DNA from: Aureliella helgolandensis
GTDB taxonomy: Bacteria; Planctomycetota; Planctomycetia; Pirellulales; Pirellulaceae
DNA length: 64,000 nucleotides
Assembly: GCF_007752135.1 (NCBI RefSeq)
Contig: NZ_CP036298.1
Span: 1,922,001 to 1,986,000, forward strand
Direction: 5' to 3'
The notes under the pieces: generated by a model
The model's database searches: none
The model's input: the letters and a program-made list of their open reading frames with translations, nothing else
What the model was told of the DNA's origin: nothing
In this document: positions 14,294 to 33,548 of the stretch, piece after piece
How the letters are laid out: each line of letters opens with the position of its first letter
Position numbering within the stretch: the first letter of the stretch is position 1
Program-made: the position numbers and the translations under genes

Positions 14294-15246
14294 CGATAGT
14301 TCGGTACGTCGACCGCCTCCAGGATACTTTGGATCACATCATTGGTTCTAGCGTTGCGAACCACCAGTCGCACTCCGAGCACTGGTTCGGCGACCGCTTG
14401 AACGTCATCGGGGATGACAAAGTCGCGATCGTGCAGCAATGCCCAGGCTTTAGCAACTTGCTGCCATATCAACATTCCACGTGGGCTGACACCGAGGACT
14501 ACTTGAGCATGCTGCCGCGATTGCTCGCATAGGGAGATGATGTAGTGCTGGACTGCATCGGCGACAAGAATCTCACTAACATGACACTGCGCGTGTGCAA
14601 GATCATCGACGGAGAGTGGAGTCGCGCCGCCAGAAGTGAAGCTGCGTGTCTGGAGTTTGAGAATCGACAATTGTGCTTCGCGATCCGGATAGCCGATTTC
14701 GAGCTTCATTGCAAAGCGATCGAGTTGAGCTTCGGGAAGTGGATAGGCTCCGTGACTATCGATCGGATTCTGTGTCGCGATCACAAAGAAGGACGGGGAC
14801 AACAGCTGCGAGCGACCGTCAATGGTGACCTGTCGTTCAGCCATTGCTTCAAACATAGCGCTCTGCGTGCGTGGCGTGGTGCGATTGATTTCATCGGCTA
14901 GCAAAATGTCCGCGAAAACTGGCCCCGGGTGAAACTCGAATTCTCGCGATTTTTGATTGAACAAATTGAATCCAGTTATATCAGTAGGCAGCAAGTCCGG
15001 CGTGCATTGAATCCGCCCAAACTTGGCCTGAAAACTAGACGCGACCGCTTTCGCGAGGGTTGTCTTACCCAATCCTGGAAGATCGTCCAACAACAGGTGC
15101 CCTCCGGCCAACAGGCAAGCAATCACCAATTCGATCCGATCTCGCTTGCCAAGTAACGCTTCGTTGAGCTGTTTCCGCAGGACATCGATGACCTTCGCGG
15201 TTGTTTCCACGGTGTCTCTTCGTTCGGTGTGTACAATTGAATTCAT
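14290..15246 (-). CDS. MoxR-family AAA+ ATPase
   Basis: 318 residues. Walker A LDDLPGLGKTTLAKAVASSF near residue 50, Walker B DILLADEINRTTPRTQSAM near 110, sensor 1 IATQNPIDSHGAYPLPEAQL, and a C-terminal lid domain (VLGVSPRGMLIWQQVAKAWAL). MoxR ATPases are chaperone-like and act with DUF58 and transglutaminase or VWA partners, all present here. The ATG at 15246 overlaps the transglutaminase gene by 4 bases. The central position in an unbroken five-gene operon suggests it helps assemble or activate a complex with the neighbouring membrane proteins. Confidence 0.93.
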   Translation of the reverse strand: MNSIVHTERRDTVETTAKVIDVLRKQLNEALLGKRDRIELVIACLLAGGHLLLDDLPGLGKTTLAKAVASSFQAKFGRIQCTPDLLPTDITGFNLFNQKSREFEFHPGPVFADILLADEINRTTPRTQSAMFEAMAERQVTIDGRSQLLSPSFFVIATQNPIDSHGAYPLPEAQLDRFAMKLEIGYPDREAQLSILKLQTRSFTSGGATPLSVDDLAHAQCHVSEILVADAVQHYIISLCEQSRQHAQVVLGVSPRGMLIWQQVAKAWALLHDRDFVIPDDVQAVAEPVLGVRLVVRNARTNDVIQSILEAVDVPNYR

Positions 15247-17657
15247 GAAGGGCTCTCGACGATGCGTAACTTGCGAAGTTTAGCCACGGTAAGTTCTCTC
15301 CAAAGTTCCAGAATAGAGGTGCGTTGCTCTGCCGATAGCGAGCTGCGGTTGCCAAATAGCAGACAATCCGATGCTTCGAGTACGGTACGAACTTTATTAC
15401 TTTGGCATTCAGGAAGATTCAATGATGCCGACAGATGTTTCCGCAGTACGGCACCGCGTGGTCGCTTTCTGCCCAAAAGCGATAGACGGACATCCAATAT
15501 CCAAGCCGTCCACCGCACCCGACGCCTGTCGCTGAGGACGACTAGGGCAGGAGCACAACACCAGCAAAGTAAATCGAAGATCCAAGCTCGTAGTAGGTAC
15601 AAGATGCTGAGGCTGATTGATGCAACAAGACAGCAGCCAGCAATCTCCCAACGTGCTTGCATGGCCTGATACCAGATGCTGGCGGTGGTACGAGGAGCAC
15701 GATAGCCAGGTGTAGGCTCGAGTGGAATCCAATAACCGTGCCCGGCGTTGATTTCGAGCCACACATGGACATCGCTGCCTTGAACCGCGTACTCGTTGTC
15801 GGCTTTAACGTAATGCTTGGGATTTATATAGAAGCCCGTGACCAGACGCGTTTCATAGCCCAAATGCTCGAGCATCAAAGCTGCCACAGTTGCGAACAGG
15901 TAGCTTGGCCCAGATCGTACTTGCAAGAACTGCTCAAGTGCTGTCTGGTGTTTAGTATCCACGTTGCCCTGCCTGTGTCGGAACTCTCTGCGCAGGCCTT
16001 CGACGACAGAACGGACTTGCTCCCAACCTCTTGACGTTTCGTCTGCATAGCTGTGTGCAAGTTCCGCCAGTTCTTCTTGGCATGTCTTCGCGCCACCCAC
16101 GTGCTCCTTTCCCGGTGAACAATGTTGAAGCAACTGCTCCATTTTTTCGAGGTCGATCTCCCCGTTCACGAAACGCACCATGGTATAGTCGGGGACGCGC
16201 TCGCGTCCCGGCATCGAGAGACAATCCGAGGCATCGTAGTGGAAGAAGTCGGCACGGCTAATTTGATCTATACTCCACAGCTTGGTTCCACAGCGACTCG
16301 GGATGATCGGCGATCCGTATCGCGTGAACTTGGCCGCTTCGGCCACTGCGCCGCGAAAGGGGCTGAGCGAACTCGCAAATTTGTTGCCCGGCGCGAAAAA
16401 CCAACTTTGTTGCTCGACTTCAATCGCTCCAGGTTTGGCTGCGCGTGATGCTTCAGCTCTCGTTATTGGTGCCCCGGTCCAAGTTACTCCGTCAAAATGA
16501 TGAAAACGTTCGACCGCCAAGTGTGCGTGCGCTCCGCCTTGCCAGAAGAATAGTGCGTTCGAAACTAGGTCCTCGGGCAGTGCCTTGCGTTCAGTTGGCT
16601 TGCGCTCGATTCCGAATTCGCTTGCACTGGACGAGCGATTGGCTTCGCTAAATTTCCCTTCATCGCTTTGAACATCTTGTGGCGACAATGCCTGAGCTTG
16701 TTCCACCGATTCCTTTGGCTTAGGCTCGCCAAACTCATCGCTGAACACATCGAACAGACTAGGCTTCTCCGAATCGAGGAACATGTCGGTTTCCACCGCG
16801 CCGAAGGATGTCGCGTGGTTCTTGGCGGCGATCAATGCGTCGCCATTGCCAACTCCTGATCGAGCCGCGCTGTCCTTGCCGGTTGTTCCACCGCTGGTCG
16901 GCATCAGCTCTGCTCGCAACCTTTGCCATACCGGCACTCGATGGCCAATCGCTAGAGTACTTCCGACGAACACAACAAGAACTAGCGCGAGATAAGTCCA
17001 ACGGAGGCCCACAGACCTATCGATGTGCTCGGCGGACCTCGATTCCAGGCCCTCCCAATGATTGCCTACCAACCACCACATACACAGCGCAACCCAGGCA
17101 TAAGCAAACCAGGTTGCCGATGCGACATCCGAGATGAGTGTTGCAAATAGAGCTACGAAACCGCTGCACACGACGGATAGGCTAACGGTACGTGACCGTG
17201 TCCCCAATAAAGCACTCGACAATCCCGCCCAACCAAGAGTTCCGAGCATGACAATTTCCGATCCATTGCCAACTCCGCAGCGTTTGGCGAGAAAATTGAT
17301 GGCCCAAGGGGAGGCGAAAGCGACAAGTAGTAATATTACCGTCGCTACATTGAGTCGTTGTTCCAAGCCTTGCCGTAGTGGCAATTGTCCCAGCGAGGTA
17401 CGCAAGCGATGGCAGCAGCCTGCCGCGAGGATAACCCCGGCACATAGAATTGCTTCCCAGGCCATGAACAACACGCTGTCATAATTCGCTCTACGTTGCA
17501 CTAGAGTTACTAGTGCCACGCAAGCCATGGCAATAGCACCGGAACGTCGACGAGTCAGCGAGTGTTCTACTCGCTGCACGAGTGGTTGTCGCCGCAGAAA
17601 ATTCTCGGTGGTGCTGGGCGATGATCGCGGTGCTGCACTAAGCGGCGAAATTTGCAA
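15243..17657 (-). CDS. Transglutaminase-like membrane protein (TgpA/DUF3488-like) with altered catalytic residues
   Basis: About 804 residues. Several N-terminal membrane helices (about 45-190), one helix near 235, a long extracytoplasmic part with the transglutaminase-like core near 580-645, a further helix at about 670-695 and a cytoplasmic tail. The core reads SGPSYLFATVAALMLEHLGY, where the usual catalytic Cys (GxCxxFA) is Ser. The His is kept in DVHVWLE and the Asp of the usual DPTP is Glu in LEPTPGY. It may be a binding or pseudo-enzyme version. The start was chosen at TTG 17657 because a perfect GGAGG lies 6 bases upstream; the open frame runs to 17696. It overlaps the DUF58 gene by 20 bases and MoxR by 4. 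Confidence 0.82.
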   Translation of the reverse strand: MQISPLSAAPRSSPSTTENFLRRQPLVQRVEHSLTRRRSGAIAMACVALVTLVQRRANYDSVLFMAWEAILCAGVILAAGCCHRLRTSLGQLPLRQGLEQRLNVATVILLLVAFASPWAINFLAKRCGVGNGSEIVMLGTLGWAGLSSALLGTRSRTVSLSVVCSGFVALFATLISDVASATWFAYAWVALCMWWLVGNHWEGLESRSAEHIDRSVGLRWTYLALVLVVFVGSTLAIGHRVPVWQRLRAELMPTSGGTTGKDSAARSGVGNGDALIAAKNHATSFGAVETDMFLDSEKPSLFDVFSDEFGEPKPKESVEQAQALSPQDVQSDEGKFSEANRSSSASEFGIERKPTERKALPEDLVSNALFFWQGGAHAHLAVERFHHFDGVTWTGAPITRAEASRAAKPGAIEVEQQSWFFAPGNKFASSLSPFRGAVAEAAKFTRYGSPIIPSRCGTKLWSIDQISRADFFHYDASDCLSMPGRERVPDYTMVRFVNGEIDLEKMEQLLQHCSPGKEHVGGAKTCQEELAELAHSYADETSRGWEQVRSVVEGLRREFRHRQGNVDTKHQTALEQFLQVRSGPSYLFATVAALMLEHLGYETRLVTGFYINPKHYVKADNEYAVQGSDVHVWLEINAGHGYWIPLEPTPGYRAPRTTASIWYQAMQARWEIAGCCLVASISLSILYLLRAWIFDLLCWCCAPALVVLSDRRRVRWTAWILDVRLSLLGRKRPRGAVLRKHLSASLNLPECQSNKVRTVLEASDCLLFGNRSSLSAEQRTSILELWRELTVAKLRKLRIVESPS

Positions 17658-18924
17658 GATCGGCCTCCATAAGCAGTTGTTCCAGTTGCGAAGCAATATC
17701 TTGATCCAGGTCGATCAAACCGCCATTGTGAACTCGGCCAGATTCTCCTCTGCCACTACAGTCTGTGCTGCGAAAGCCTCGACCTGGCGTGATCAGTTCG
17801 AAGCAGATGGTTTGCTCGCGATGTGGGCGTCCGTTCTCGTCCCAAGCATGTATTCGAATCGTTGGCATGCTCGGCTCCACGTGCGATGTGGCCTGTAATT
17901 TCTCTGGACTACTGTCCAGCGGTACGTCCGACAACAAATCTCTTGCCCGCCGAGAAGCATGTGGGCCAGGCGGCAGGCAAATTGGTTGGTCGTCGATCCA
18001 CAATCGGAACGGTATATGGCGTGCAGAGAGTAGTTCACTCACGCTAGCCGCCAATCGTACTCGCCAGGCCAAATTCTCTCTGGCGCATCTCGCTGTTCCT
18101 AAGCTGCGAGCTGTTGACAATTGCACATTGATCGTCTCCTGTTGGGGGCCGCCACGTTCGCACACAACCAGTCGCTCATTCCGCGCCGATTGAGCCCAAT
18201 GAATGGATTTCAAAGAATCGCCATCGCGAAAATCTCTTACACCTTGAAACTCACCGTGCTTGCAAGGCCTGTTTCCGGGACCATGATCGGACCACTTTGA
18301 ACCCACGCGTTCAACATCGGACTGCAGAGGGATGTACAACGGCCGCACCAGTACAGGGACGACGTCTTCTACTCCGATTCGAGCAGTCCAAATGCCGAAT
18401 GGAAACGAACAAGCTATCTTTGGGGGGACGGTTGGATAATGGCCTCGATACTCTGGACACAGAGGCAGTCGATAGGTCGCTCGGCTAAAGGCTGGGACCA
18501 GTCCCAGCACGCCATCAGCCTGAGCTTGCCTATCATCCTCTGCATCGCCCATTTGAGAAAAATATCCTTCGATGCGCAGGCCAGTAATCGGCAGCGGCAA
18601 GTAGTTCGTTACGCTAAAGCTCAAGAACGTGTCTTGTCGTTCCCGCAGCTCAAAGTCCACCGGCCGTAGTTTGCAGCGTACGCAACGCGTTGCCAGCCAG
18701 GGAAAGCTCAGTCCGAGGACAATTACTGTTGCCAAACCCGCCGCCACGCTCCAGCCCAGCGGGCTTAAGAACGCTCCTACCAGCAAGCTCGCGACCAGCG
18801 CCAGTGCGAACCAACCCACCGGCTCCTTTAGCCAGTAGACATACCGATTCGCCCACGGACAAAAGTCGCGGTTGGACAGCGCGTAGATGCGGTCAACCAA
18901 CCGGCCTAAGTGAATGAAATTCAT
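17638..18924 (-). CDS. DUF58 domain protein
   Basis: About 428 residues from ATG 18924; a 24-codon open extension upstream was not used because it would run into the preceding gene. Two membrane helices at about 30-75 (WFALALVASLLVGAF, GLATVIVLGLSFPWL), a beta-rich segment, then the DUF58 signature near residue 235-260 (EFQGVRDFRDGDSLKSIHWA, QSARNERLVVCERG). DUF58 proteins regularly pair with MoxR ATPases, as here. First gene of a tight operon with transglutaminase-like protein, MoxR, lipoprotein and permease. Its start is 16 bases after the PEP-CTERM stop, so that gene may be cotranscribed. Function presumed in envelope protein assembly. Confidence 0.88.
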   Translation of the reverse strand: MNFIHLGRLVDRIYALSNRDFCPWANRYVYWLKEPVGWFALALVASLLVGAFLSPLGWSVAAGLATVIVLGLSFPWLATRCVRCKLRPVDFELRERQDTFLSFSVTNYLPLPITGLRIEGYFSQMGDAEDDRQAQADGVLGLVPAFSRATYRLPLCPEYRGHYPTVPPKIACSFPFGIWTARIGVEDVVPVLVRPLYIPLQSDVERVGSKWSDHGPGNRPCKHGEFQGVRDFRDGDSLKSIHWAQSARNERLVVCERGGPQQETINVQLSTARSLGTARCARENLAWRVRLAASVSELLSARHIPFRLWIDDQPICLPPGPHASRRARDLLSDVPLDSSPEKLQATSHVEPSMPTIRIHAWDENGRPHREQTICFELITPGRGFRSTDCSGRGESGRVHNGGLIDLDQDIASQLEQLLMEADLANFAA

Positions 18925-18940
18925 CCCAGTGCATGCCTTC

Positions 18941-19708
18941 TTAGGTGCCGATGCGTCGGCGATGGAAAAGCCCACCTGCCGCGACGAATCCAGCAAGCAG
19001 CAGACTGCTGGGTTCTGGCACTGCGGAAATCTCGCTGCCGGTTACAAAGCGAAACGAGGCAGTATCGGAATACAATCCCTGGGCAATTGAGCCGGCGCCA
19101 GAGTTCGTTCCACTAATCGATAGACTGACGTCGTAGATGCCTTCGCCAGTGAAGCCAAAGTTGTAGTGATCGTGACTGAGAGGATTTTGCGTCCAACTAT
19201 TGTCTGTCCCCGTTGGCGCCAGAGTAGATGCGAATACAACAGGATTCCCCAAACTGTCGCTTTGCCACAACGCAAACTCAGAAGGGGCACCCGAAAAAGT
19301 GGTGATTGAATTAAACGTCCAAGTGAGCGGCGTCGACCAACCGTCAGAGGCGTTTAGCTCTTCGGTTCCGAAGCCCAGAAAGGGTTTCTGCGGATTGGAA
19401 CTCTGTGGAAGGAACCAAACCGAATCTCCGGCGTTGGCTGACAAAAAATCCCACTGCGAGCCGGTTGGGCGAGCAATCGACGGATTGGGAACCCCGATGA
19501 GAAGATCGCCTGGATCGTATTCCCCGGCCGGTGCCGTTCCACCGCCAAAGAGCCCTACAGGATCTTCGTTATGCGAATGCAAATGAAGATTTCCATCTTC
19601 GAAGCCGACTCCAAGATCGGAGTGACCGGAGATATAGATTTCTGCGTGAATAGAATTAGTTACTGAGTGCAAGACGCAAATGGTCAATGCAAAAACAAAT
19701 GTCTTCAT
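18941..19708 (-). CDS. PEP-CTERM protein with choice-of-anchor-M-like domain
   Basis: About 255 residues from the ATG at 19708. Signal peptide MKTFVFALTICVLHSVTNSI, mature part beginning AEIYISGHSDLGVGFEDGN, and the motif LSHDHYNFGFTGEGIYDVSL near residue 185. That motif resembles the H-x-H-x-N-W-x-F-T-x-x-G-x-Y block of choice-of-anchor-M surface proteins, whose actinobacterial members sit beside zinc/manganese-type ABC transporters. The C-terminal sorting signal is VPEPSSLLLAGFVAAGG followed by HRRR, a clear PEP-CTERM tail. Predicted to be exported and sorted to the cell surface. It lies between a DUF1559 gene and the DUF58 operon, all in one direction. Confidence 0.82.
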   Translation of the reverse strand: MKTFVFALTICVLHSVTNSIHAEIYISGHSDLGVGFEDGNLHLHSHNEDPVGLFGGGTAPAGEYDPGDLLIGVPNPSIARPTGSQWDFLSANAGDSVWFLPQSSNPQKPFLGFGTEELNASDGWSTPLTWTFNSITTFSGAPSEFALWQSDSLGNPVVFASTLAPTGTDNSWTQNPLSHDHYNFGFTGEGIYDVSLSISGTNSGAGSIAQGLYSDTASFRFVTGSEISAVPEPSSLLLAGFVAAGGLFHRRRIGT

Positions 19709-19772
19709 GGATGCGTTTCCTGGTAAGGATTGAGTACGGGTGAGTACATTAAAACTGGATGCAAAAAAACGA

Positions 19773-20900
19773 TTAGGGTATTTCACCGACGGCCTCACCT
19801 CCATTGCGAGAACCAATCGACCACCACACTTGGTTGTCGATGCTATCGCTCAGGAACTGGATATGGCCATCGACGAAGCAAAGCAAGGCTCCTCCCACGT
19901 GATTGCTACTGGCAGTCACAATGTTGCTGCCGTCGTCTTCGCCACCATACAGGTGGCAGTTGCGCGTGTTCAGCGGCATGACGTGCATGTACAAGTTCGA
20001 TGCCAGCGTCCATCCTGAGATCCAACTACGGCCATGCGGCAGAGAATAGGTGGGATCAGCTACCGACACTCCATTGCAGTACGTAACCCAATCCCCGAGC
20101 CGTCGATTGCTACTGCCGGCTCCAGCACAGAATGATGTGGTTGCAGGTTTGGAACTGCCCTGCATGGTGGTTCCAAAAGGTCCGGTAGTTCCCACCGCAT
20201 TGTTGATGAGGCGTTCCGCTACGAGAGCGGTGCTCGAAGTGCCGTCCGTGAAGTCGCGTAACTTGATCTTGGGTATTTGCCAAGCATCAGGCTGGAGGGG
20301 ATTGATGATTGGCATCGCGCCATTCGCGACTTTGAGTGGTGCCCCCGATCCTTCGATTCCGGTTGCACCACGAACCCATCCTAGGTTTCCTGCATACGAT
20401 CCAGGGGCGGGCTGGGCAGTACCGAGCGTTGGTGTCTGAAGGACTGGGTCGGATGGGCAAAGAAATGTGGGTACGATTGTTGCAGCAGCTCGAGCGTTCG
20501 GATGCGTAGCACTCATGGTTAAATGCCTGTAGTCAAAACTGCCTGAGAAGCTTTTGTCATCAACCATCGACTGGCAGAAGTCAATCGAGTTGTAGAGTGG
20601 CCCCTGCTCAATCTGCGGTAGGATCCTCGCCATCCAACTCGCAAAACCGCTCCCCAACTGTGGATTCGCGTGGCTTGGCCCGGTTGTCGTAAGTGGAAGC
20701 GATCTGTGGAGCGTTTCATAATTTAGGATGGCCAGCCCCATCTGCTTGAGATTGTTGGCGCACTGCATCCTCCTGGCTGCTTCGCGTGCCGCTTGCACCG
20801 CCGGAAGAAGCAATCCGACAAGGACTCCGACAATAGCGATCACCACCAGCAGCTCCACGAGCGTGAAACCACGTCGTGCGCTCGACGATTCCGTAAACAT
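19773..20900 (-). CDS. DUF1559 domain protein
   Basis: 375 residues from the ATG at 20900; an open frame extends 42 codons upstream without family features. Prepilin-like [20 protein letters not shown] at residues 8-27, [18 protein letters not shown], and a C-terminal HVGGALLCFVDGHIQFLSDS in which the usual ADGSV is VDGHI. The middle contains CHLYGGEDDGSNI. The gene ends 64 bases before the PEP-CTERM start and may be cotranscribed with it. Surface or pseudopilin role presumed; function unknown. Confidence 0.92.
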   Translation of the reverse strand: MFTESSSARRGFTLVELLVVIAIVGVLVGLLLPAVQAAREAARRMQCANNLKQMGLAILNYETLHRSLPLTTTGPSHANPQLGSGFASWMARILPQIEQGPLYNSIDFCQSMVDDKSFSGSFDYRHLTMSATHPNARAAATIVPTFLCPSDPVLQTPTLGTAQPAPGSYAGNLGWVRGATGIEGSGAPLKVANGAMPIINPLQPDAWQIPKIKLRDFTDGTSSTALVAERLINNAVGTTGPFGTTMQGSSKPATTSFCAGAGSSNRRLGDWVTYCNGVSVADPTYSLPHGRSWISGWTLASNLYMHVMPLNTRNCHLYGGEDDGSNIVTASSNHVGGALLCFVDGHIQFLSDSIDNQVWWSIGSRNGGEAVGEIP

Positions 20901-21231: not shown

Positions 21232-21639
21232 CTAGGCGCGGCTTGGCGGCCCTCGGGCCTTGAGATAGACAGTCCGAATGGAATCGGCTGATAGATACGA
21301 CGTAGCAATTGAGGTGATCAGTTGGCCGCTGTAGACTTCGATAACGAAGCTGTGCTCGGACTGAGCTTGCGCGTAAAAGGCACAGATGGAGCACGGACCA
21401 TGACTGGCCACAATTTCGGGACGGTCGCTTGGGGCCGACGCCCCGTGCTCCGATAAATGCTCACCATGCGAACAGCAATGCGACGAGTGGCTTTCGCCGC
21501 TTGACGGAGCATGTTCGATTTGGCAGGAAGCGTCGCTATGTGAGCACGCAGGCTCGTGATGGTGCCAATGAGGCCCAACCGCAGCTGGCACTCCATAGAG
21601 TGCAATCAAGCATATTGCGACGATACGTTGGGAAAACAA
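21232..21639 (-). CDS. His/Cys-rich small protein, copy A (TTG start)
   Basis: 135 residues. Hydrophobic N-terminus (FSQRIVAICLIALYGVPAAV) acting as signal or anchor, then GPHWHHHEPACSHSDASCQ, SHSSHCCSHGEHLSEHG and a C-terminal helix region with GPCSICAFYAQAQSEH. The density of His and paired Cys indicates metal binding, and the protein faces the periplasm. The start is set at TTG 21639 because a GGAG lies 7 bases upstream and the paralogue at 33114-33521 has a stop directly before the same TTG. The two proteins are then both exactly 135 residues. No known family is assigned with certainty; it resembles small DUF2946-like proteins. It lies downstream of... the island's last core gene is at 21833 on its upstream side. 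Confidence 0.75.
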   Translation of the reverse strand: MFSQRIVAICLIALYGVPAAVGPHWHHHEPACSHSDASCQIEHAPSSGESHSSHCCSHGEHLSEHGASAPSDRPEIVASHGPCSICAFYAQAQSEHSFVIEVYSGQLITSIATSYLSADSIRTVYLKARGPPSRA

Positions 21640-21646
21640 CTGAGAA

Positions 21647-21666
21647 CTCCGCACAAACGGGTGCGG
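21647..21666 (-). promoter_or_regulatory. Leader hairpin overlapping the ribosome site of copy A
   Basis: On the minus strand CCGCAC-CCGTTT-GTGCGG forms a perfect 6-bp stem with a 6-base loop. The final GG of the stem is the first half of the GGAG ribosome site that precedes the TTG start by 7 bases. The same element with an identical stem and loop stands before copy B. Folding would mask the ribosome site, so it is a candidate translational control element. Confidence 0.5.
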
Positions 21667-21832
21667 TCCGACCGAGCGTAAGTCTATACACAACCGGCGG
21701 TCATGTCAACTTTCGCGACGACGAATCGCAGCAAACTTTCATCCGATATCTTACAGCAATTCTTTAATTTTGTTGAGCTGCCTGACACCGAAACGATCTA
21801 GCGCTCTTCCTGGCAACGAGAATTGATTGTAA

Positions 21833-24800
21833 CTAGGCAGCTGGTGAAGTCGTGAGCGTGCTTTTGCAGGACCTGCGAAAACCCGCTGCAAGACCACCGA
21901 TTACAATCGCGAGGAACAGCCAGATCGCCCTTGTCGGCTGGGTTTCGTTTTCAGCCGGTTGTTCAACCACCTGATCGCGAATTTCCTTCATCTCGATGCC
22001 TTCGACCTTTGCAGGCGATTCGTTGGGTTGGATGGCAGCGGCGAGGGCAGCCTGGTATTCACTGACGGTTTGCGGGGTCGCGCCGGAACTGGGGGCATTG
22101 AGTTGCTTACCTAGGAACTCGTGGAAAGCTGCGTTACCGCAAGTCTCATAGGAACACGCGGCCCCATGTTCGGCAACAAGTTCGACGTGGACCTGGGCCA
22201 AGCGTTGAAGGACCTCAGCAGCGGGATTCCAGTACCCTTTGCGTGCGGTCTCAAGCATCACCGCGGTCATTTCTTGTAATGCGTACGGGTTTTTGTCTTC
22301 AAAATACTCACGCATTTCTAGGTTGTATTTGTCTTCGATGTAGACTTTGTACGTTTCGTCCCACATGTCTTGTTTGATGGCAGAGGGTTGCATCACGTTC
22401 CAGCCATACATATTGCGAACACTTTCGGTGAGAGAGGCTGCCGCCGAGGCGCCTTCGCGTTGCATGCCTTGGATATACTTCGGGTTCCACATCGTGGTGC
22501 GCGCCTCTTCACGGATCGCACCGACCGACGTTGTCACTTTCGCGCGTCCTGGTTGGCGTAGATCGCTGAAATATCCAGTGGGATCGTTGCCAGTCGTTTC
22601 ACGAACCGCCAAAGTGATTCCACCCATGAACTCGTAGACGTGGTCGAGCGACAAAGGTCCCCAGGTATTCGAGCTACGCGGATGAACCACCGCGTCCACG
22701 CCTTGCATCTGCGCCTCCAATAAACCAGGCAGGACCGTCCCCCAGCGATCGCCATCGCGGTAGACGCCAGACATATTCTGGATGTACTGCTTGGCGACTC
22801 GATCGCTTGCTTCCCAAGTGTCGCCCTTTTCCACCATGCCCATGATCTGCGTGCCATAACTACTGTTGCTTGCGGAACCGAAGATGCGAGCTGTCGCGAA
22901 ATCCCTCGCGTTTTTGGCGGAGATGCCATTGGACTTAAGTGTCAGTTCTGTCTGTTCGGTCCCTTCACGGACGAAGTTCGGATACTCCTCTGCTTCGATC
23001 GCACTCGCAATCTGAACCGCGTTGTCGATCAATGCGATGCGAGAAGCGGCGGCGTCGCGAAATTGCCCAGAGGTCTGTACCAACACATCAATCCTTGGCC
23101 GATTCAATTCACTCGCAGGAATGGCCTCTACGTCATAAACTACGCCGCGCGAGTTCCACACTGGCCGCATGCCCATTAAGTAGAGTATCTGAGCCAGTCC
23201 GGTTCCTTTACCACGAATGAACTCTCCGCCCCAAAGAGATATGGCCACTTGCCGAGGGTATTGTCCGCCATGGCTCGCCCGATGCGCTTCAAGCATTTGA
23301 TCGGTGAGTTTCATGCCAACTCTCCAAGCTTCGGGGCTAGGCGTTTGCTCTGCGTTGATCGAATAGAGATTGCGACCTGTCGGCACTGCGTCAGGATTGA
23401 CCAGCGGATCGCCACCGCTGGATGGTGCAATATATTCCGCGTTGAGCGCTGCCACGATTTCGTCGAGTTCGGTCTGAGGCGAGCTGCGAAGGTTTGCAGC
23501 GTTTTGCTTGGCAGAGTTGATGAGTTCGATGAGTGCCTGTTGGTCTTGTGGACGCTTTGAAACCCAAGATTGAAATTCATTAACGTCTTTCCAAAGACCT
23601 CCATCCGCTTGTGCTGCTGCGGAAGGGATTGAGGGTTGGTCTCCCGATACGTCTTCGAAAACAGGAGCAGGAGACACCTTGGTTTCGTCGGATGAAGGCG
23701 CCTTCTTGGTTGCGCCCGAGACACCGTCCGACTCTTGACCGCGTTTGGGGAGTTCAGCGGCGCGCATGGCTTCGATCGCTTGCGTCATCTTCAGTTGTTG
23801 CTCGGGTGTGAAAATCTCATCAACCTGCAACTCGTTAGACAGCACGGACTCCACAAACTGCGCGGCCCATTGCTGTTGGAACTCAAGCTTTGCGGGATCG
23901 TCTGCCCTGCCGAGTGAGGCAAGCAGTTGATCGACTCCTTGTTCGCCCATCATGGCGGTGACTGTTTGTTGAACTTGATCGGGGGCGAGCTCGCGCCCGA
24001 TTACGTGCAGGCCATCGGTCACACTTTGGTCCTTCAATTGATGGATGTAATTGTGCACCTCTGTCAGCTCGTCTTCCTTGAGCATTCGCCCCGCGAGATG
24101 TTCCGCATCGAGTCCCAAATCGGTCGCGATGTTCAATTCACGCACCAGCTCCGTGACGGAACGGAGCGTCTCTTCACGCAACAGCGGATCTTCGACTTGC
24201 TCCCAATCGTGAATCTTGTCATGCAGCAGCGACAGTTCGCCGTACAATCCGGCTTCCATGAAAGGTGGCGTGAGGTGTGATACAATGACGGCATTGGAAC
24301 GTCGTTTGGCTACCAAGGCTTCTCCGACGTTGTTGATCACGTAAGGGTAAATGTGAGGCACGTCGCCGATGAGAATCTGTGGCCAACAATCACGGCTTAA
24401 GCAATTGGATTTACCGTAAGTAAACTCCAGGGATCCGTGCGTGCCAAAGTGCATGATGGCATCAGCACCGAATCCATAGCGGGCCCACAGGTAGGAGCCT
24501 AGATAGAAATGGGGAGCGGCTTGGTCCGTACCGTGAATCGAGCTGATTTCGTTTTCGTTCTCGCCGCCGCCCACCGTCGGCTGAGGCATGATGACAACGT
24601 TGCCGAATCGAATACGACTGATGACAAGGTGCGGCTTGCCTTCGACGTTGGTCACCATCTTGTCGCCAGGGAGATCTCCCCAAAGATCAATCGTCTCCTG
24701 CTGACGCTTCGGTGAAAGAGCCTCTTGGAACCAGCGCGCATACTCCTTCGCCGGAACCAATTCGGGGTCAGCTTCTCGCAAGAATGTTTCGTAGGCGCCG

Positions 24801-26083
24801 AGCGCCCACTGCCCGAGAGTCTTGCCCTTGGTCTGAATCAAGTCAAAAAGCGCTTCGGGAGATTCAGGCAAACCGTCTCCCAAATCATAGCCTTCAGCTT
24901 CAAGACGCTTCAGCGTATTCCATAAAGCCGGGACGACCTCCAAACCGCCAGCTGAGAGCGCTGCAAGCCCAGGCGATTTGTAGTACACAATGACCAGCTT
25001 CTTTTCGGAGTTGGACTTCTTGCGAAGTTCTAACCAATTCATTGCCAAGTCGACCCGTGCCGTCATTTGGTCGTCCATTGGTGTCCGAACGCTTAAGTTG
25101 CGTTCGTTGGGTTCCATCGACGTAACGACGATGGGCTCGATGATGCCGTCCAGTTCAGGTGCCGTGATGGACTGTCCCAGAAAACCGCCCTCCATCCCGC
25201 GTTCGTCGGCCAACCAAACATCACGGCTGCTGAGTAGCGGGAGCGCGCTGACGATCGGACAATCCAACTCTCGCAAGAGTGCGTCTCCTTCGCCGCCGCG
25301 CGACAGGCGGCCGTGGGGAAACGTGAGGATCAGGTCCGGCTGAATTTCACGCAGCAATGGAAGCATCTCGGAACGACCGAACATGGGATAGACTTTCGCA
25401 CCTCCGTCTTCGAGTGCTGTGAGGAGTGCATCGACCGGGGCACGATTGAGCGTATCTTGCGGGTCCATGAAGCTCCCCAGCAAGACAACTTTATGAGACT
25501 TGCTATCGGCCCCCAATCCACGTTGCGATTGAAACTGTTCAAACTCATCCAGTGTCTCGAACACCGTGTCATCATGGTGAAAAAAACCGCTTTGCGGATT
25601 TTCGATCAGAGGAGGCACTTTTACCTCGCGGCCTCCCAAGTGATGAGCGGCATAGTGAGTCATACCAATCAAATTCGCCTCGCCACCATTCTGCATGTAT
25701 TCGGCGATTGCAAGGCGATGCTCCTCAGGCACAGACGTTTGCTGCTCGGAGAGCGCGTTGGTGGCCGTGCGAATGTAGAAATGCGTGCCCGACTCCCTCG
25801 CAGCATCCATTCGTGCGACTTGCTCATTAGTCAGATTAAGTCCCTGACCGCGAATGAAAACAAGGTTGTAGTTGCTCAACCGAGCGGTTTCTATTCCTGA
25901 GTCCTCGTAGCGATGAATGGTATAGCCGGCTTGCTGAATCGCAGTTTCCCAATTCGCCCAGTCGGTATCCGAGAATCCAATCGTCGCGATCCGGAATGGT
26001 CGCAAGTACTCATAGTATGCCCATAGCCCTCCGGCAAAGAACGCGAGCAGCACACCGAGCGAAATCAGAAGTCGTTTAGTCAT
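21833..26083 (-). CDS. Membrane-anchored CobN/HmuS-like chelatase large subunit
   Basis: 1416 residues. It has the CobN/BchH fold signature MHFGTHGSLEFTYGKSNCLS near residue 545, DVPHIYPYVINNVGEA, and in the C-terminal half AISLWGGEFIRGKGTGLAQI and PRIDVLVQTSGQFRD. It has a membrane helix at residues 5-25 and another at about 1384-1404, with a low-complexity Ser/Pro/Asp linker at 775-830. Soluble cobaltochelatase CobN lacks such anchors. Membrane-tethered versions encoded with ExbB-like and DUF2149 proteins are known from the hmu haem-uptake loci of Bacteroidota (HmuS). Last gene of a five-gene unit, 3 bases after the DUF2149 stop. It probably inserts or removes a metal in a tetrapyrrole or related ligand at the membrane; the substrate is unproven. 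No CobS/CobT partner in the window. Confidence 0.88.
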   Translation of the reverse strand: MTKRLLISLGVLLAFFAGGLWAYYEYLRPFRIATIGFSDTDWANWETAIQQAGYTIHRYEDSGIETARLSNYNLVFIRGQGLNLTNEQVARMDAARESGTHFYIRTATNALSEQQTSVPEEHRLAIAEYMQNGGEANLIGMTHYAAHHLGGREVKVPPLIENPQSGFFHHDDTVFETLDEFEQFQSQRGLGADSKSHKVVLLGSFMDPQDTLNRAPVDALLTALEDGGAKVYPMFGRSEMLPLLREIQPDLILTFPHGRLSRGGEGDALLRELDCPIVSALPLLSSRDVWLADERGMEGGFLGQSITAPELDGIIEPIVVTSMEPNERNLSVRTPMDDQMTARVDLAMNWLELRKKSNSEKKLVIVYYKSPGLAALSAGGLEVVPALWNTLKRLEAEGYDLGDGLPESPEALFDLIQTKGKTLGQWALGAYETFLREADPELVPAKEYARWFQEALSPKRQQETIDLWGDLPGDKMVTNVEGKPHLVISRIRFGNVVIMPQPTVGGGENENEISSIHGTDQAAPHFYLGSYLWARYGFGADAIMHFGTHGSLEFTYGKSNCLSRDCWPQILIGDVPHIYPYVINNVGEALVAKRRSNAVIVSHLTPPFMEAGLYGELSLLHDKIHDWEQVEDPLLREETLRSVTELVRELNIATDLGLDAEHLAGRMLKEDELTEVHNYIHQLKDQSVTDGLHVIGRELAPDQVQQTVTAMMGEQGVDQLLASLGRADDPAKLEFQQQWAAQFVESVLSNELQVDEIFTPEQQLKMTQAIEAMRAAELPKRGQESDGVSGATKKAPSSDETKVSPAPVFEDVSGDQPSIPSAAAQADGGLWKDVNEFQSWVSKRPQDQQALIELINSAKQNAANLRSSPQTELDEIVAALNAEYIAPSSGGDPLVNPDAVPTGRNLYSINAEQTPSPEAWRVGMKLTDQMLEAHRASHGGQYPRQVAISLWGGEFIRGKGTGLAQILYLMGMRPVWNSRGVVYDVEAIPASELNRPRIDVLVQTSGQFRDAAASRIALIDNAVQIASAIEAEEYPNFVREGTEQTELTLKSNGISAKNARDFATARIFGSASNSSYGTQIMGMVEKGDTWEASDRVAKQYIQNMSGVYRDGDRWGTVLPGLLEAQMQGVDAVVHPRSSNTWGPLSLDHVYEFMGGITLAVRETTGNDPTGYFSDLRQPGRAKVTTSVGAIREEARTTMWNPKYIQGMQREGASAAASLTESVRNMYGWNVMQPSAIKQDMWDETYKVYIEDKYNLEMREYFEDKNPYALQEMTAVMLETARKGYWNPAAEVLQRLAQVHVELVAEHGAACSYETCGNAAFHEFLGKQLNAPSSGATPQTVSEYQAALAAAIQPNESPAKVEGIEMKEIRDQVVEQPAENETQPTRAIWLFLAIVIGGLAAGFRRSCKSTLTTSPAA

Positions 26084-26086
26084 GTT

Positions 26087-26488
26087 TTATTCCTCGTCCT
26101 CAGCTGGTACATATACGACACGTCCATCGGGCAAGCGGTACGCCTGACCGAGTAGCTCGCCTTGGCCAGCGCCGGTGGCCTCTGAGGCTTCGTAGTGCTT
26201 AATCTCCTCACCTTCTTTGACCACGATCTCCATGTCCGGCGTTCCCGGGTTGGTGATGATGGTGTAATCGCTTTCCTTCAACAGGGCCGGGACTTGTAGG
26301 TAGGAGACGAGCGCAACCATTAGGGCCACAGCGAATACCATGGCCGCGTCGAAAAGATTGGCCAAACCAGAGAGAGGCTCCACTTCCGCGTCCTCTTCAA
26401 ATGAACTGGCTCTTTTGAGTCGCCGCAAACGCAAGTCATTGAGCAGTGTTCGCTGATCTATGCTCTGAGTTGCTAGTGGATCAGACAT
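26087..26488 (-). CDS. DUF2149 membrane protein
   Basis: 133 residues. The N-terminal cytoplasmic part ends in EVEPLSGLANLFDAAMVFAV, the diagnostic DUF2149 beginning of a single membrane helix (about 50-70). A periplasmic domain follows, with GAGQGELLGQAYRLPDGRVV near the C-terminus. The architecture resembles ExbD (one N-terminal helix plus periplasmic domain). It overlaps the ExbB-like gene by 8 bases and precedes the CobN-like gene by 3, so all three are translationally linked. DUF2149 proteins co-occur with CobN-like and MotA/TolQ/ExbB proteins; it probably forms a proton-driven motor complex with the ExbB-like protein that energises the chelatase-like subunit. Confidence 0.85.
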   Translation of the reverse strand: MSDPLATQSIDQRTLLNDLRLRRLKRASSFEEDAEVEPLSGLANLFDAAMVFAVALMVALVSYLQVPALLKESDYTIITNPGTPDMEIVVKEGEEIKHYEASEATGAGQGELLGQAYRLPDGRVVYVPAEDEE

Positions 26489-27179
26489 GGGAAATCTCCT
26501 CGACGTCGGCCTGTTGTGCTATCTCGTCCGAGGCGGCTTGCAGGACTTCCAACTGGCTGGTTGATTCCATCTCTTCCATAATTAGTGGCCGACCTGCAGC
26601 TGCACGAAGACTGATGCGATCAACACAGAGATTTAGCAGTGCCGAATCTACTTGGAACCAATGCTTTTTCACAGACACCAGGTAACCCGCGACGAGTCCG
26701 ACGAAAAGCCCGAGTACCGTTGTGGAGAATGCAATGACCAGATTGTTACTCATCGTTTGTATGTCTCCGACCGCCAAACCCACCAGTGCCGGCCCCAGCG
26801 GTATCAACGTGCCCATCAAGCCCAGGCCGGGACCAAGTTTTACTAGGCCTCGTAAGCTTTCGAGCTGTCGTCGCCACCCCAATTCCGCTCGTTCGGCGAG
26901 GTATGCGATCTGCGCCAAGTCGTTCGCCGCCGCTAACATCTGGAAGACGATTCGTTGCACTTCGCATCGCTGTTCCTGGATTGGCAAGATCGCGGAATCT
27001 TGCACTAAAGCTTGCTCCAGAGTTGCAGTAGAGTCTTTCTGTTGTAATCGAGTTAGGTATTCCTGAAGTACGCGTCCGGATTGAATAAGCGTCCTAACGA
27101 CCGATACAAGCAGTACGACTAGAACAGGAATAAGTAGTGCGTTGGAAAAAATGTAGAATACTTCGGTCAACAGTTGCAT
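26481..27179 (-). CDS. MotA/TolQ/ExbB proton-channel family protein
   Basis: 232 residues. First helix at about 8-28 (FSNALLIPVLVVLLVSVVRT), a cytoplasmic helical stretch, then the family core LRGLVKLGPGLGLMGTLIPL and GPALVGLAVGDIQTMSNNL at about 115-155, followed by IAFSTTVLGLFVGLVAGYLV. These match the conserved MotA_ExbB region. Such proteins use the proton gradient to drive work across the envelope. It overlaps the DUF2149 gene by 8 bases and follows the 246-residue membrane protein by 12. Here it probably energises the CobN-like system instead of a TonB system, since no TonB or TonB-dependent receptor gene is present in the window. Confidence 0.88.
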   Translation of the reverse strand: MQLLTEVFYIFSNALLIPVLVVLLVSVVRTLIQSGRVLQEYLTRLQQKDSTATLEQALVQDSAILPIQEQRCEVQRIVFQMLAAANDLAQIAYLAERAELGWRRQLESLRGLVKLGPGLGLMGTLIPLGPALVGLAVGDIQTMSNNLVIAFSTTVLGLFVGLVAGYLVSVKKHWFQVDSALLNLCVDRISLRAAAGRPLIMEEMESTSQLEVLQAASDEIAQQADVEEISHV

Positions 27180-27191
27180 GGAATTGCTTTG

Positions 27192-27932
27192 CTAATTGAG
27201 TTGGATACGTTGGTTTTGGCGCCGCTGCAACAGCCAGCCCGTCACCAGACAAACGCCAGCGAGAACGGTGAAAGGGACAAGGGAGGTTGCGGCTGCCTGC
27301 GTCGTCGCCACGTCGCTTGTCGATGGCATGGAGTTGTTTAAGCTGGGTGCTACGCAGACGACGGTCAGAAGGCTCAGGCAGCAGATGAAATGTAGTTGGG
27401 CACGCTGTGACGCGGAGAGAAGACTGGCGGCCAAGCTAGTCGCAAGTAGCAGGGCTGAGACTAGGCCTGCACTCGCCATCCCAACCCACTCAGGCCTAGC
27501 TCCGACTTGCCGCGCTAACCAAGATTGCTGTACGATCAGGATCGCGATCACTATTGGGATAGCTGGGAGCGTGTGCAAGATTCCTAGCAGTGTCCGCCAG
27601 CGATCCACGCGATCCTTGCCAGCGACTCTTATTCCGCCGTAGAATGACACTCCCGTAACGACAACCACCACAAGTGCCAGATTTATTAAATTGTCCATCG
27701 GCAGGAATCGGGCTTGCAGATCAGACATTGAGTTCGCGTCAGCAATTGGATTCACCAAGAACACGGCAAGCGCGCTCAAGCCGACGACCAGCGGCAACAG
27801 ATACCACTGCCTCGAAACGGCAAGCCCAGACACTTGCCAGACTAGCGCAATCAGGAAGCAGGCTGCCAACAGGCTTGCTTCGTGACTTCCGCCTATTGCT
27901 AAGAGCATTTCAATGAGATTCGACATTTTCAC
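27192..27932 (-). CDS. Polytopic membrane protein of the CobN-like operon
   Basis: 246 residues with about six to seven hydrophobic segments (for example ASLLAACFLIALVWQVSGLA, LINLALVVVVVTGVSFYGGI, SLVPFTVLAGVCLVTGWLL). No family was recognised; its place matches that of small membrane proteins in hmu-type operons. The first start is a GTG at 27932 whose GTGA overlaps the lipoprotein stop. An ATG two codons later (27926) is equally possible. The tight spacing (4-base overlap upstream, 12-base gap downstream) indicates it is part of the motor/chelatase complex or its transport path. Confidence 0.7.
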   Translation of the reverse strand: MKMSNLIEMLLAIGGSHEASLLAACFLIALVWQVSGLAVSRQWYLLPLVVGLSALAVFLVNPIADANSMSDLQARFLPMDNLINLALVVVVVTGVSFYGGIRVAGKDRVDRWRTLLGILHTLPAIPIVIAILIVQQSWLARQVGARPEWVGMASAGLVSALLLATSLAASLLSASQRAQLHFICCLSLLTVVCVAPSLNNSMPSTSDVATTQAAATSLVPFTVLAGVCLVTGWLLQRRQNQRIQLN

Positions 27933-28330
27933 TCGACTCCTGAAAGTTCATCAAACGGTGCACCGATTCCTTCTACCATCTCGTCGCCTCGTGTTCCTTT
28001 GAACTCAACCATCGCCCAGCGGCAGGTGTCCTTCATTGGTGACAGCCAGTAGACTCGCTGCCGCGATCCACTGCTGTAGCAAACGGGAGTTACCTGCAAG
28101 GCTGGGTTATCTGCTACGTCAGCAGCCCGCCGAAAGTATCTCGCGAGCTGCGCATCGTGCTTCTTGTCCCAGGTTTGTTTCACCCATTCGCTGCCATCAG
28201 CCTGAATGGCGTCTGGTTGAATGACTTCGCGACTCGAACTGGGCACGGATCGGTTGCATCCGGCCATCCAAAGACTGGCTGACAATGCCAAAATCGAAAT
28301 GCGACTTCTACGAGTGCAAATTAGAACCAT
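27929..28330 (-). CDS. Lipoprotein heading the CobN-like operon
   Basis: 133 residues from ATG 28330. Lipoprotein signal ISILALSASLWMAGCNRS with the lipidated Cys at about residue 25. The mature part contains EWVKQTWDKKHDAQLARYFR, VTPVCYSSGSRQRVYWLSP and KDTCRWAMVEFKG, with two Cys that could form a disulfide. No known domain recognised. First gene of the five-gene unit running to the CobN-like gene, and overlapping the next gene by 4 bases. Likely a periplasmic accessory or ligand-binding lipoprotein of that system; this role is inferred from position only. Confidence 0.72.
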   Translation of the reverse strand: MVLICTRRSRISILALSASLWMAGCNRSVPSSSREVIQPDAIQADGSEWVKQTWDKKHDAQLARYFRRAADVADNPALQVTPVCYSSGSRQRVYWLSPMKDTCRWAMVEFKGTRGDEMVEGIGAPFDELSGVE

Positions 28331-28384: not shown

Positions 28385-29365
28385 CTAATCCAAACCATTT
28401 TGTACAACCTCACCATCGCGGCGATCGTGTAGAATCCGCCAAGTGTTTAAGTCGATGCTGTCGGACAGGAAGTGGACGCTTCCATCCGCTAGGGCCGCGT
28501 TGACTCCTCCGGTATGTTGACTCCTTGCACCGGAAACGCATTCGCCGTGGTGCGAGACATCAGGTTGCTTCGCATTCGGTGGAAAGAAACCGTTGATGAA
28601 TGTTTGGTAAGTGATGTTTCGAATCCATTGTCCAGCGCGACGCCCCTCGTAACGCATGGCTGAACGTGCAACTAGATCCTCGGCGGTCGCGGAACACGCT
28701 CCACCGCCGCTCACACGCTTGATTTGCGTTCGATAGTCAACCAAATCCGTAGTGTCGTCCCCTCTCATGCCGAACAGTGTTTCGGCCACGATCAGAGTGT
28801 TGCTTGTACCGTCAGTGATTTCGCTAAACTTCACATTCGAGCCGCGCCAAGCGATACCGAATGTATCCTCACGGCTGCAGTAGGAGAATCCATTTCCTGG
28901 TCCGGCGTTCACCATGTAGTTAGCTCCAGCCCACTCTTGGTCTTTCTCGATGTAGAATGGATTGCCAGGATCACTTGGGCAAAGAAACACCGCAAGTAGT
29001 TGACCGACTACCGGCGCTAGGTTTGGATTGAGATCAGGATTGTATGCAACACCAGTAAGCAGCGGCTGCTGGTAGTCAATGAGGTTGTGAAGGTTGGCTT
29101 GCTCAACGAACGGAAGCAACTTGCTTTGGAACGAGTAGCCGTAAAGCGAATCTTCGGCGGGGCCAGGGAATCTCTTGTGAGCTGATTCGTAGTTGTGCGC
29201 CGCCAGCGCCAACTGCTTGAGATTGTTCGAACATTGCATTCGGCGAGCAGCTTCACGTGCGGCCTGGACGGCTGGCAAAAGTAGGCCCACCAGTATGCCA
29301 ATAATGGCAATGACTACCAGTAGTTCGACGAGAGTAAACGCCTTGCTCTTTTTTGTATGTTTCAT
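28385..29365 (-). CDS. DUF1559 domain protein beside the CobN-like operon
   Basis: 326 residues from ATG 29365. Prepilin-like [20 protein letters not shown] at residues 7-26, [20 protein letters not shown], and the canonical C-terminal HTGGVNAALADGSVHFLSDS. It ends 54 bases before the start of the lipoprotein that heads the CobN-like operon, so it may be cotranscribed. This is the only DUF1559 copy inside the island bounded by the His/Cys-rich repeats, and may be a surface component of the same system. Function of the family unknown. Confidence 0.92.
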   Translation of the reverse strand: MKHTKKSKAFTLVELLVVIAIIGILVGLLLPAVQAAREAARRMQCSNNLKQLALAAHNYESAHKRFPGPAEDSLYGYSFQSKLLPFVEQANLHNLIDYQQPLLTGVAYNPDLNPNLAPVVGQLLAVFLCPSDPGNPFYIEKDQEWAGANYMVNAGPGNGFSYCSREDTFGIAWRGSNVKFSEITDGTSNTLIVAETLFGMRGDDTTDLVDYRTQIKRVSGGGACSATAEDLVARSAMRYEGRRAGQWIRNITYQTFINGFFPPNAKQPDVSHHGECVSGARSQHTGGVNAALADGSVHFLSDSIDLNTWRILHDRRDGEVVQNGLD

Positions 29366-33113: not shown

Positions 33114-33521
33114 CTAGGCGAGGCAGGGAGGTCCACGGGCCTTAAGGTAGACAGTCCGAATCGATTCGGCTGATAGATACGCCACAGCAACTGAGGTGAT
33201 CAGTTGGCCGCTGTAGACTTCGAGAATGAAGCAATGCTCGAACTGAGCTTGCGCGTAGAAGGCACAGATCGAGCAAGCACCATGGCTGGCTACAACCTGT
33301 GGATTGTCGCCCGGCCCCGACGTCCGTCGCGCCAATGAATGCTCAACGTGCGAACAGCAATGCGACGAGTGGCCTGCGACGCTTGACGGATCATCTTCGA
33401 CTTCGCAGGAAGCGTCGCTATGTGAGCAGGCATGCTCGTGTTGGTGCCAATGAGGCCCAACCGCGGCTGGCACTCCATAGAGTGCGACCAAGCATATTGC
33501 GACGATACGTTGAGAGAACAA
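33114..33521 (-). CDS. His/Cys-rich small protein, copy B (TTG start)
   Basis: 135 residues, paralogous to 21232-21639 (same length, about 80% identical by eye). Hydrophobic start FSQRIVAICLVALYGVPAAV, then GPHWHQHEHACSHSDASCE, HSSHCCSHVEHSLARR and GACSICAFYAQAQFEHC. The start must be TTG 33521 or later, since the codon before it is TAG; a GGAG precedes it by 7 bases. Differences from copy A are concentrated between the His/Cys clusters, while ligands are mostly conserved and one Cys is gained (FEHCFILEV). Likely periplasmic metal binding. First gene by transcription order at the far end of the island. Confidence 0.75.
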   Translation of the reverse strand: MFSQRIVAICLVALYGVPAAVGPHWHQHEHACSHSDASCEVEDDPSSVAGHSSHCCSHVEHSLARRTSGPGDNPQVVASHGACSICAFYAQAQFEHCFILEVYSGQLITSVAVAYLSAESIRTVYLKARGPPCLA

Positions 33522-33530
33522 CTAAGAACT

Positions 33531-33548
33531 CCGCACAAACGGGTGCGG
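33531..33548 (-). promoter_or_regulatory. Leader hairpin overlapping the ribosome site of copy B
   Basis: The same CCGCAC-loop-GTGCGG stem as before copy A, again with the last two stem bases forming part of the GGAG ribosome site. About 25 further bases upstream (GGTCGGACC and flanks) are also shared between the two copies. Conservation of stem, loop and spacing in two diverged copies supports function. Confidence 0.5.

Follow-up and report, generated by a model that had tools for sequence, protein, structure and literature searches.

An operon of the planctomycete Aureliella helgolandensis as a probable form of the HmuSTUV machine that has no linked TonB receptor

On what does a proton-driven motor act when its genes stand beside that of a chelatase and no outer-membrane receptor is linked to them? 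We address this question for a five-gene operon of Aureliella helgolandensis, located in a stretch of 64,000 nucleotides (contig NZ_CP036298.1, positions 1,922,001-1,986,000, forward strand) that we call the window. Its largest product is a class I chelatase of 1416 residues; the other four are a small lipoprotein-like protein, a polytopic membrane protein, and one protein each of the MotA/TolQ/ExbB and DUF2149 families (Table 1). In the hmu system of Bacteroides thetaiotaomicron, HmuS was shown in 2025 to take iron out of haem, and HmuU and HmuV are drawn as the energiser of the HmuR receptor (PMC12583661). HmuT is drawn in the literature as part of a haem transporter. Our preferred answer, to which we give a probability of about 55%, is that these genes represent a planctomycete form of HmuSTUV with no linked receptor, devoted to periplasmic demetallation, in which the motor acts on the chelatase and the HmuT-like protein.

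An earlier, sequence-only reading of this DNA had described five minus-strand genes, and all of them are present with the positions and spacing it gave: along the direction of transcription they are joined by a 4-base overlap, a 12-base gap, an 8-base overlap and a 3-base gap. Using profile hidden Markov models, we found the order T-U-V-S (HmuT-like, ExbB-like, DUF2149 and chelatase genes) in 19 of 21 HmuS-type planctomycete loci, the window included, while the two exceptions (L074 and L195) are on short or broken contigs. The 21 loci, with 6 to 24 kb of DNA each, include near-duplicates or members of the same genus (L200 and L201; L040, L192 and L193). Because this order recurs in 18 of the 20 other loci, the operon is real and not a chance arrangement. 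Scans for promoters and terminators gave site numbers no higher than in shuffled sequence.

Regarding the large protein, comparison with solved structures gave 912 bits for HmuS (PDB 9d26), 375 for ChlH and 368 for CobN. In a FastTree tree of 64 rows, it falls inside a planctomycete clade (support 99) that adjoins the HmuS-type proteins of Bacteroidota, Lentisphaerota, KSB1 and Myxococcota, and proteins from loci that carry cobalamin or bacteriochlorophyll genes lie outside the joint clade (support 100). Another tree, built from 47 rows, agrees on the planctomycete clade (support 100) and places the planctomycete proteins of another family, f108, in a separate HmuS-type clade with one Myxococcota protein (support 99). 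These supports are Shimodaira-Hasegawa-like values, not bootstraps, and the HmuS-type clade as a whole reaches 100 in both trees; the relatives from named genomes are the best 80 of 567 confirmed. Judged by the structure scores and by both trees, the protein is of HmuS type by descent and not a CobN, as the sequence-only reading had held. It is the single CobN-family protein of the 8.44-Mb genome, which is one contig, and it carries hydrophobic stretches (judged by eye) at about residues 5-24 and 1386-1402. HmuS-type matches above 500 bits were present in 15 of 397 genomes of the class. Other Planctomycetota (L034-L061) have CobN-type proteins of different clades, often in the arrangement receptor-CobN-ExbB-DUF2149 and without HmuT.

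We aligned 19 planctomycete HmuS-type sequences and give residue positions in B. thetaiotaomicron numbering, mapped via the Bacteroides finegoldii protein. His538, Glu577, Asp1208, His1209 and Glu1212 are kept in all 19, and their equivalents in the window protein are His549, Glu588, Asp1147, His1148 and Glu1151. The motif HFGTHG, which contains His549, fits the HFG(T/A)HG pattern of HmuS with its catalytic His538, and LSLDHVYEFMGG, with His1148 and Glu1151, fits the LSLDHxxEFMGG pattern that holds His1209 and Glu1212. Ser1199 is likewise kept in 19 and Ser1067 in 18 of the 19 sequences. Exchange of the catalytic histidine (H538A) in B. thetaiotaomicron HmuS abolishes haem turnover, in which NADH is needed and protoporphyrin IX and Fe(II) are the products (PMC12583661). 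The function of the operon is likely to be the proton-motor-coupled removal of metal from a tetrapyrrole, and we infer that haem is the first candidate substrate.

Three of the remaining proteins have counterparts in the Bacteroidota operon. Identity to the B. finegoldii counterpart is 32% for the ExbB-like protein and 43% for the DUF2149 protein. The pore threonine of the former (Thr124) is kept in 102 of 103 proteins, with a gap in the other one, and the membrane aspartate of the latter (Asp47), which sits in a predicted helix, in 100 of 100; the proton motor that the sequence-only reading had placed beside the chelatase has both of its motor residues intact. Asp47 suggests the role of a stator partner for the DUF2149 protein, whose C-terminal end is a conserved GxxxYVP stretch. 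According to a 2026 paper, HmuV is homologous to no known family (PMC13227078). The polytopic membrane protein, to which the sequence-only reading gave no family, is, by profile comparison, a diverged HmuT: hhalign gave 96.9% over 214 columns between the two family profiles (alignments of 11 and 14 sequences), while the single sequences of the window and B. finegoldii gave a merely suggestive E=0.010. Its model is all-helical, with a mean predicted local distance difference test score (pLDDT) of 89.6, and no transporter class can be named for it because the model has no PDB match at E<=0.001. The small lipoprotein has relatives only in genera g3 and g7 among the loci searched (7 loci, with one gene counted twice). 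As a HmuY-like candidate it was rejected, since it gave no alignment with B. finegoldii HmuY and belongs to no family.

To see which genes accompany the motor, we used 30 Planctomycetota loci chosen by DUF2149 from 294 genomes, leaving out one second place in genome G049. A CobN-type gene was present in 28 of them, and one of the other two is cut by a contig end. An ExbB-like gene accompanies the CobN-type gene in all 28, while a receptor is present in the examined DNA of 18; therefore, the motor genes are tied more closely to the chelatase than to the receptor. With or without a receptor, the genes for the chelatase, the ExbB-like protein and the DUF2149 protein thus occur together, which argues that the motor would serve the chelatase and the HmuT-like protein. 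Among the 21 HmuS-type planctomycete loci, a TonB receptor was found in one (L073, directly after the operon). In the 64 Bacteroidota-group loci the genes stand in the order S-T-U-V; 57 of these loci have a same-strand receptor no more than 6 kb away, and 54 have HmuY. Regarding the window, a genome-wide Plug search and a Pfam search of 40 of its open reading frames revealed no TonB receptor in it, and neither HmuY nor HmuR was found within a 20-kb stretch at the operon (HmuY was not searched elsewhere in the genome). That neither a receptor nor HmuY is linked to the operon is a feature of the lineage and not a local loss. The sequence-only reading had reported no receptor and no HmuY; this holds for the locus, and it has to be amended for the genome, where two Plug places, both confirmed as receptors, lie 1.55 and 4.98 Mb away in linear coordinates. 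A metagenome-assembled genome named Ruminococcus flavefaciens (L098) also has a Bacteroidota-type hmu operon, and its bin is possibly misnamed.

According to the reading that we favour, the HmuS-type protein would be anchored in the inner membrane with its body probably facing the periplasm, and would hold a metal-tetrapyrrole between His549 and His1148. The metal would then be removed, so that the reaction presumably runs in the direction known for HmuS and haem. Together, the ExbB-like protein and the DUF2149 protein would form a proton-driven motor that may be coupled to the chelatase and the HmuT-like protein, and its target would not be an outer-membrane receptor.

Several observations weigh against this reading. 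The site-1 haem ligand Met79 is replaced by Gln in 8 of the 19 planctomycete sequences (Gln80 in the window) and by Arg in 5, with Met kept in 6; among the 64 Bacteroidota-group sequences, this position holds Met in 53, His in 8, Arg in 2 and Pro in 1. The other ligand, His254, is kept in 17 of 19 and in 63 of 64 sequences, respectively, and its window equivalent is His257, so that the window protein departs from the published site-1 ligands in one of the two. Two proposed porphyrin contacts are changed in all 19 sequences, Ser1014 to Gly, Ala or Pro and Gln1198 to Ser or Thr, and Trp1202 is changed in 5, the window not among them. Besides, the insertion of the window protein is not Met-rich, with 2 Met in 110 residues, a trait seen likewise in 13 of the 64 Bacteroidota-group sequences, which have less than 3% Met there. 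HmuS is defined in the published text by a Met-rich insertion, Met79 and His254, within a set confined to sequences at least 50% identical to B. thetaiotaomicron HmuS (PMC12583661). As aligned here, the window protein lacks two of these family-defining features, Met79 and the Met-rich insertion. L063, a 90-kb record deposited as a B. finegoldii plasmid, holds a complete hmu operon whose HmuS has a short insertion. On the side of the motor, no homology could be detected between the DUF2149 profile and the only ExbD of the loci (hhalign 1.7%), and the structure model of the DUF2149 protein is of poor quality (pLDDT 70.4) and matches no fold significantly. A search of the PDB with this profile gave no ExbD among the matches, and the DUF2149 protein as an ExbD homologue was rejected on both comparisons; the likeness is one of role and of one Asp. 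The lack of a linked haem receptor or HmuY, and the presence of a zinc-type GTPase and a permease module beside such operons, which suggests metals other than iron, count on the same side.

The surroundings of the operon bear on the last of these points (Table 1). A DUF1559 prepilin-like gene is directly upstream, and its relatives adjoin several sister operons; this adjacency is weak evidence, as four such open reading frames are found in the window alone. Downstream, beyond a His/Cys-rich gene and a choice-of-anchor M protein, is a module of five genes. Its DUF58-like protein is below the Pfam cut-off, while the relative in genome G238 passes it (29.8 bits). The module is also downstream of HmuS-type operons in genus g7 (G238 and G421, and G361 in the stretch read), and genome G335 of family f108 has it beside the operon without the small lipoprotein. 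We considered whether its transglutaminase-like protein is dedicated to the operon. In four of the first five chosen genomes there was one match each, always in the cluster, and a wider search refuted the idea: the protein occurs in 155 of 397 genomes of the class, mostly without an HmuS-type match, its closest relatives (G627, G610 and G464) are in genomes with no such match, and a CobN-type match is missing from all 11 further module loci that were read. Fourteen genomes have both operon and module, adjacent in five (G000, G238, G361, G421 and G335, from three genera) and on different contigs in nine. Because the transglutaminase-like protein is widespread and operon and module are apart in 9 of these 14 genomes, the adjacency is a recurring association, not dependence. 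By our own estimate, with one module copy per ~8 Mb, an adjacency within 10 kb would be rare by chance, at ~0.25% per genome. The transglutaminase-like proteins of the window and G238 seem to lack what we take to be the catalytic Cys of their family.

Table 1. Features of the operon and its neighbourhood (window coordinates)
Feature	Coordinates	Strand	Remarks
Small lipoprotein-like protein, first gene of the operon	27929..28330	-	133 aa; no Pfam family above cut-off
Polytopic membrane protein, diverged HmuT by profile	27192..27932	-	246 aa; no Pfam family above cut-off
MotA/TolQ/ExbB protein, HmuU counterpart	26481..27179	-	232 aa; Pfam MotA_ExbB 30.7 bits
DUF2149 protein, HmuV counterpart, membrane Asp47	26087..26488	-	133 aa; Pfam DUF2149 105 bits
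HmuS-type class I chelatase	21833..26083	-	1416 aa; Pfam CobN-Mg_chel 1005 bits
DUF1559 prepilin-like gene	28385..29365	-	directly upstream of the operon; relatives adjoin several sister operons
His/Cys-rich small protein, copy 1	21232..21693	-	downstream of the operon
His/Cys-rich small protein, copy 2	33114..33521	-	
Choice-of-anchor M, PEP-CTERM protein	18941..19816	-	82.8 bits, cut-off 55
DUF58-like protein of the module	17638..18996	-	17.1 bits, below Pfam cut-off 23.4
Transglutaminase-like membrane protein of the module	15243..17696	-	
MoxR AAA+ ATPase of the module	14290..15246	-	
Small lipoprotein-like protein of the module	13679..14293	-	
ArsP_1-family permease of the module	12078..13682	-	73.2 bits

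Two copies of a His/Cys-rich gene flank the operon, a MerC gene and a gene for an AztD-like protein. They are part of a direct repeat (21232-21690 and 33114-33572) that is 86% identical over 459 bases, with the copies 11,882 bases apart, and may be marks of insertion or duplication. The operon was found in none of the five other genomes of the same genus examined (E<=1e-100). In G464, also of this genus, where it is absent at the same threshold, the stretch read has the module and one His-rich gene. The flanking repeats, together with a module that stands without the operon in G464, suggest that the module is the older element and that the block with the operon was inserted beside it. Base composition shows no sign of insertion by recent transfer: the guanine-plus-cytosine content is 53-57% in 4-kb blocks over the whole window.

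One could argue that the operon supplies zinc or another non-iron divalent metal, which the chelatase would take from a chelate under limitation. We regard this as possible, though improbable on balance. It is suggested in the first place by ZigA (NCBIfam zinc-metallochaperone GTPase model, cut-off 600), whose gene lies no more than ~9 kb from an HmuS-type operon in members of two families: G238 and G421, both of one genus of family f3, score 609.9 and 611.1, and G326 of family f108 has one copy at 605.4 and a second one cut by the end of the stretch. These operons belong to two separate HmuS-type clades, and none of the 71 loci L080-L150 (Bacteroidota and others, with flanks of varying length) has ZigA. 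The permease module stands beside the operon in three genera, and the window adds MerC, the anchor-M protein and a secreted-looking protein (31364-32776) with an HGNHFHW stretch and a weak AztD match. The analogous genes PA1922-PA1925 of Pseudomonas aeruginosa are in the Zur regulon (PMC4542158, PMC9431628, PMC8456098) and are thought to help the bacterium under zinc limitation; PA1923 and PA1925, the latter a DUF2149 protein (PMC9431628), increase 122- and 56-fold in a zinc-uptake mutant (PMC4542158). The window genome itself, however, has no ZigA above the cut-off (best 30.3 bits), nor does it have SIP; the best NCBIfam match of the permease, the SO_0444 Cu/Zn efflux model, gives 79.7 bits, far under the cut-off of 300; and the AztD match is only at E=0.0068, with nothing in Pfam or the PDB. 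Genes of iron type are found near sister operons, namely SIP upstream in genus g7 and, in L075, a Fur-family gene that follows the operon, and a ferritin-like gene is ~1.5 kb from one distant receptor of the window genome. A Pseudoalteromonas stand-in for PA1923 falls outside the HmuS clade, PA1923 itself not being in the tree.

A candidate regulator box, the palindrome ATGCAATNNNATTGCAT, is found in G238 exactly before the HmuT-like gene and with two mismatches before DUF1559. In L076, its core precedes the gene that lies upstream of the operon. When two mismatches are allowed, the palindrome occurs at 23 places in G238 and its reversed control at 8, and the genes beside the 21 places outside the cluster, read by eye from their translations, are not recognisable as zinc or iron genes. 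In the window the palindrome is at chance level (3 found, 3.2 expected). A palindrome TGCAATNNNATTGCA was also observed in L040 (8270-8284), before the g7 operon, and in L076 (4703-4717), before the gene upstream of the operon. Taken as observed, the neighbours of the operon hint that metals besides iron may be involved. A fuller version of the idea is that in planctomycetes an HmuS-type de-chelatase with changed porphyrin contacts has turned into a receptor-free, proton-driven scavenger of zinc or another non-iron metal from a periplasmic tetrapyrrole or similar chelate, linked to ZigA and to the module with the ArsP_1-type permease; we hold this to be somewhat more doubtful than zinc supply in general.

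The motor could instead energise a distant TonB receptor, the chelatase only processing what that receptor imports. HmuU and HmuV have been proposed to power HmuR (PMC12583661), L073 has a receptor directly after its operon, and profile searches of 17 kb around each of the two receptors of the window genome found no ExbB-like gene of the operon family, so these receptors need a motor from elsewhere. One of them is at 7610-9736 of L155, with the ferritin-like gene at 11211-11837. We nevertheless consider this explanation unlikely, since neither receptor is near the operon, the trio is intact in the 10 loci (of 28, some on short contigs) that show no receptor in the DNA examined, and a control search found DUF2149 in Methanosarcina acetivorans, an archaeon without an outer membrane.

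It is very improbable that the machine inserts metal into a tetrapyrrole in the periplasm: its relatives CobN and ChlH do insert metals, and a proton motor could supply the energy, but the closest characterised relative removes iron and shares the catalytic residues, and CobN and ChlH have no membrane anchors (PMC13227078). A true CobN cobaltochelatase subunit of aerobic cobalamin synthesis, as the Pfam and NCBIfam names (CobN/Mg-chelatase) would have it, is hardly credible and was rejected, given that the protein is under all nine matched NCBIfam CobN/BchH equivalog cut-offs (best 758.8 bits against 1248) and groups away from the CobN of loci with cobalamin genes, that the genome gives no match to the CobS model TIGR01650 at E<=0.001, and that positions 8000-36000 of the window give no Rfam match at gathering score and hence no cobalamin riboswitch. 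The sequence-only reading had named a CobN placement with cobS elsewhere as what would speak against it, and both came out against CobN (cobT was not searched). On family and motor that reading was mostly right.

The HmuSTUV branch without a linked receptor remains the reading that we prefer, and a lineage that has S, T, U and V but no linked receptor lets the question of the motor's target be asked. Changed haem-ligand and porphyrin-contact positions around an intact catalytic centre provide a natural test of the role of the site-1 haem. The joining of ZigA and the permease module, if functional, would extend HmuS chemistry beyond iron, and if the non-iron scavenger were true, HmuU and HmuV would drive the chelatase and not a receptor, contrary to the published drawing. 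Open-licence publications on HmuS and Planctomycetes or Planctomycetota deal, by their titles and the starts of their abstracts, with community ecology or other matters; we found none that joins cobaltochelatase, planctomyc and ExbB, and none that joins HmuS, zinc and ZigA, and the word planctomyc is absent from the EMBO J paper as far as its main text goes.

Four known systems can be set beside the operon. The CobN of aerobic cobalamin synthesis (L066, L069 and L070) is of the same Pfam family as the window protein, yet it stands beside cobalamin genes, on a separate branch, and is without membrane anchors (PMC13227078). PA1922-PA1925 of P. aeruginosa likewise join CobN-like, ExbB/ExbD-family and DUF2149 genes (PMC4542158, PMC9431628), a likeness drawn from their published description; they have a TonB receptor and a Zur site, whereas the window operon has no receptor, and the published passages name no HmuT-like gene among them. 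The stators TonB-ExbB-ExbD, TolQR and MotAB share a similar ExbB-like protein with the conserved Thr and a partner with one membrane Asp. In contrast to these stators, the DUF2149 protein is without homology to the one ExbD compared and ends in GxxxYVP; its Asp is presumably parallel to those of ExbD and MotB. Closest of all is HmuS of the B. thetaiotaomicron hmuYRSTUV operon (PDB 9d26; PMC12583661). The window differs from it in the lack of a linked receptor and HmuY, in the order T-U-V-S, in Gln for Met79, Gly for Ser1014 and Ser for Gln1198, and in an insertion that is not Met-rich. Both proteins nonetheless belong to a common clade, with HFGTHG and LSLDHVYEFMGG, the catalytic His, Asp and Glu residues, a hydrophobic stretch at each end and the partners T, U and V (for which the B. 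finegoldii operon served as reference).

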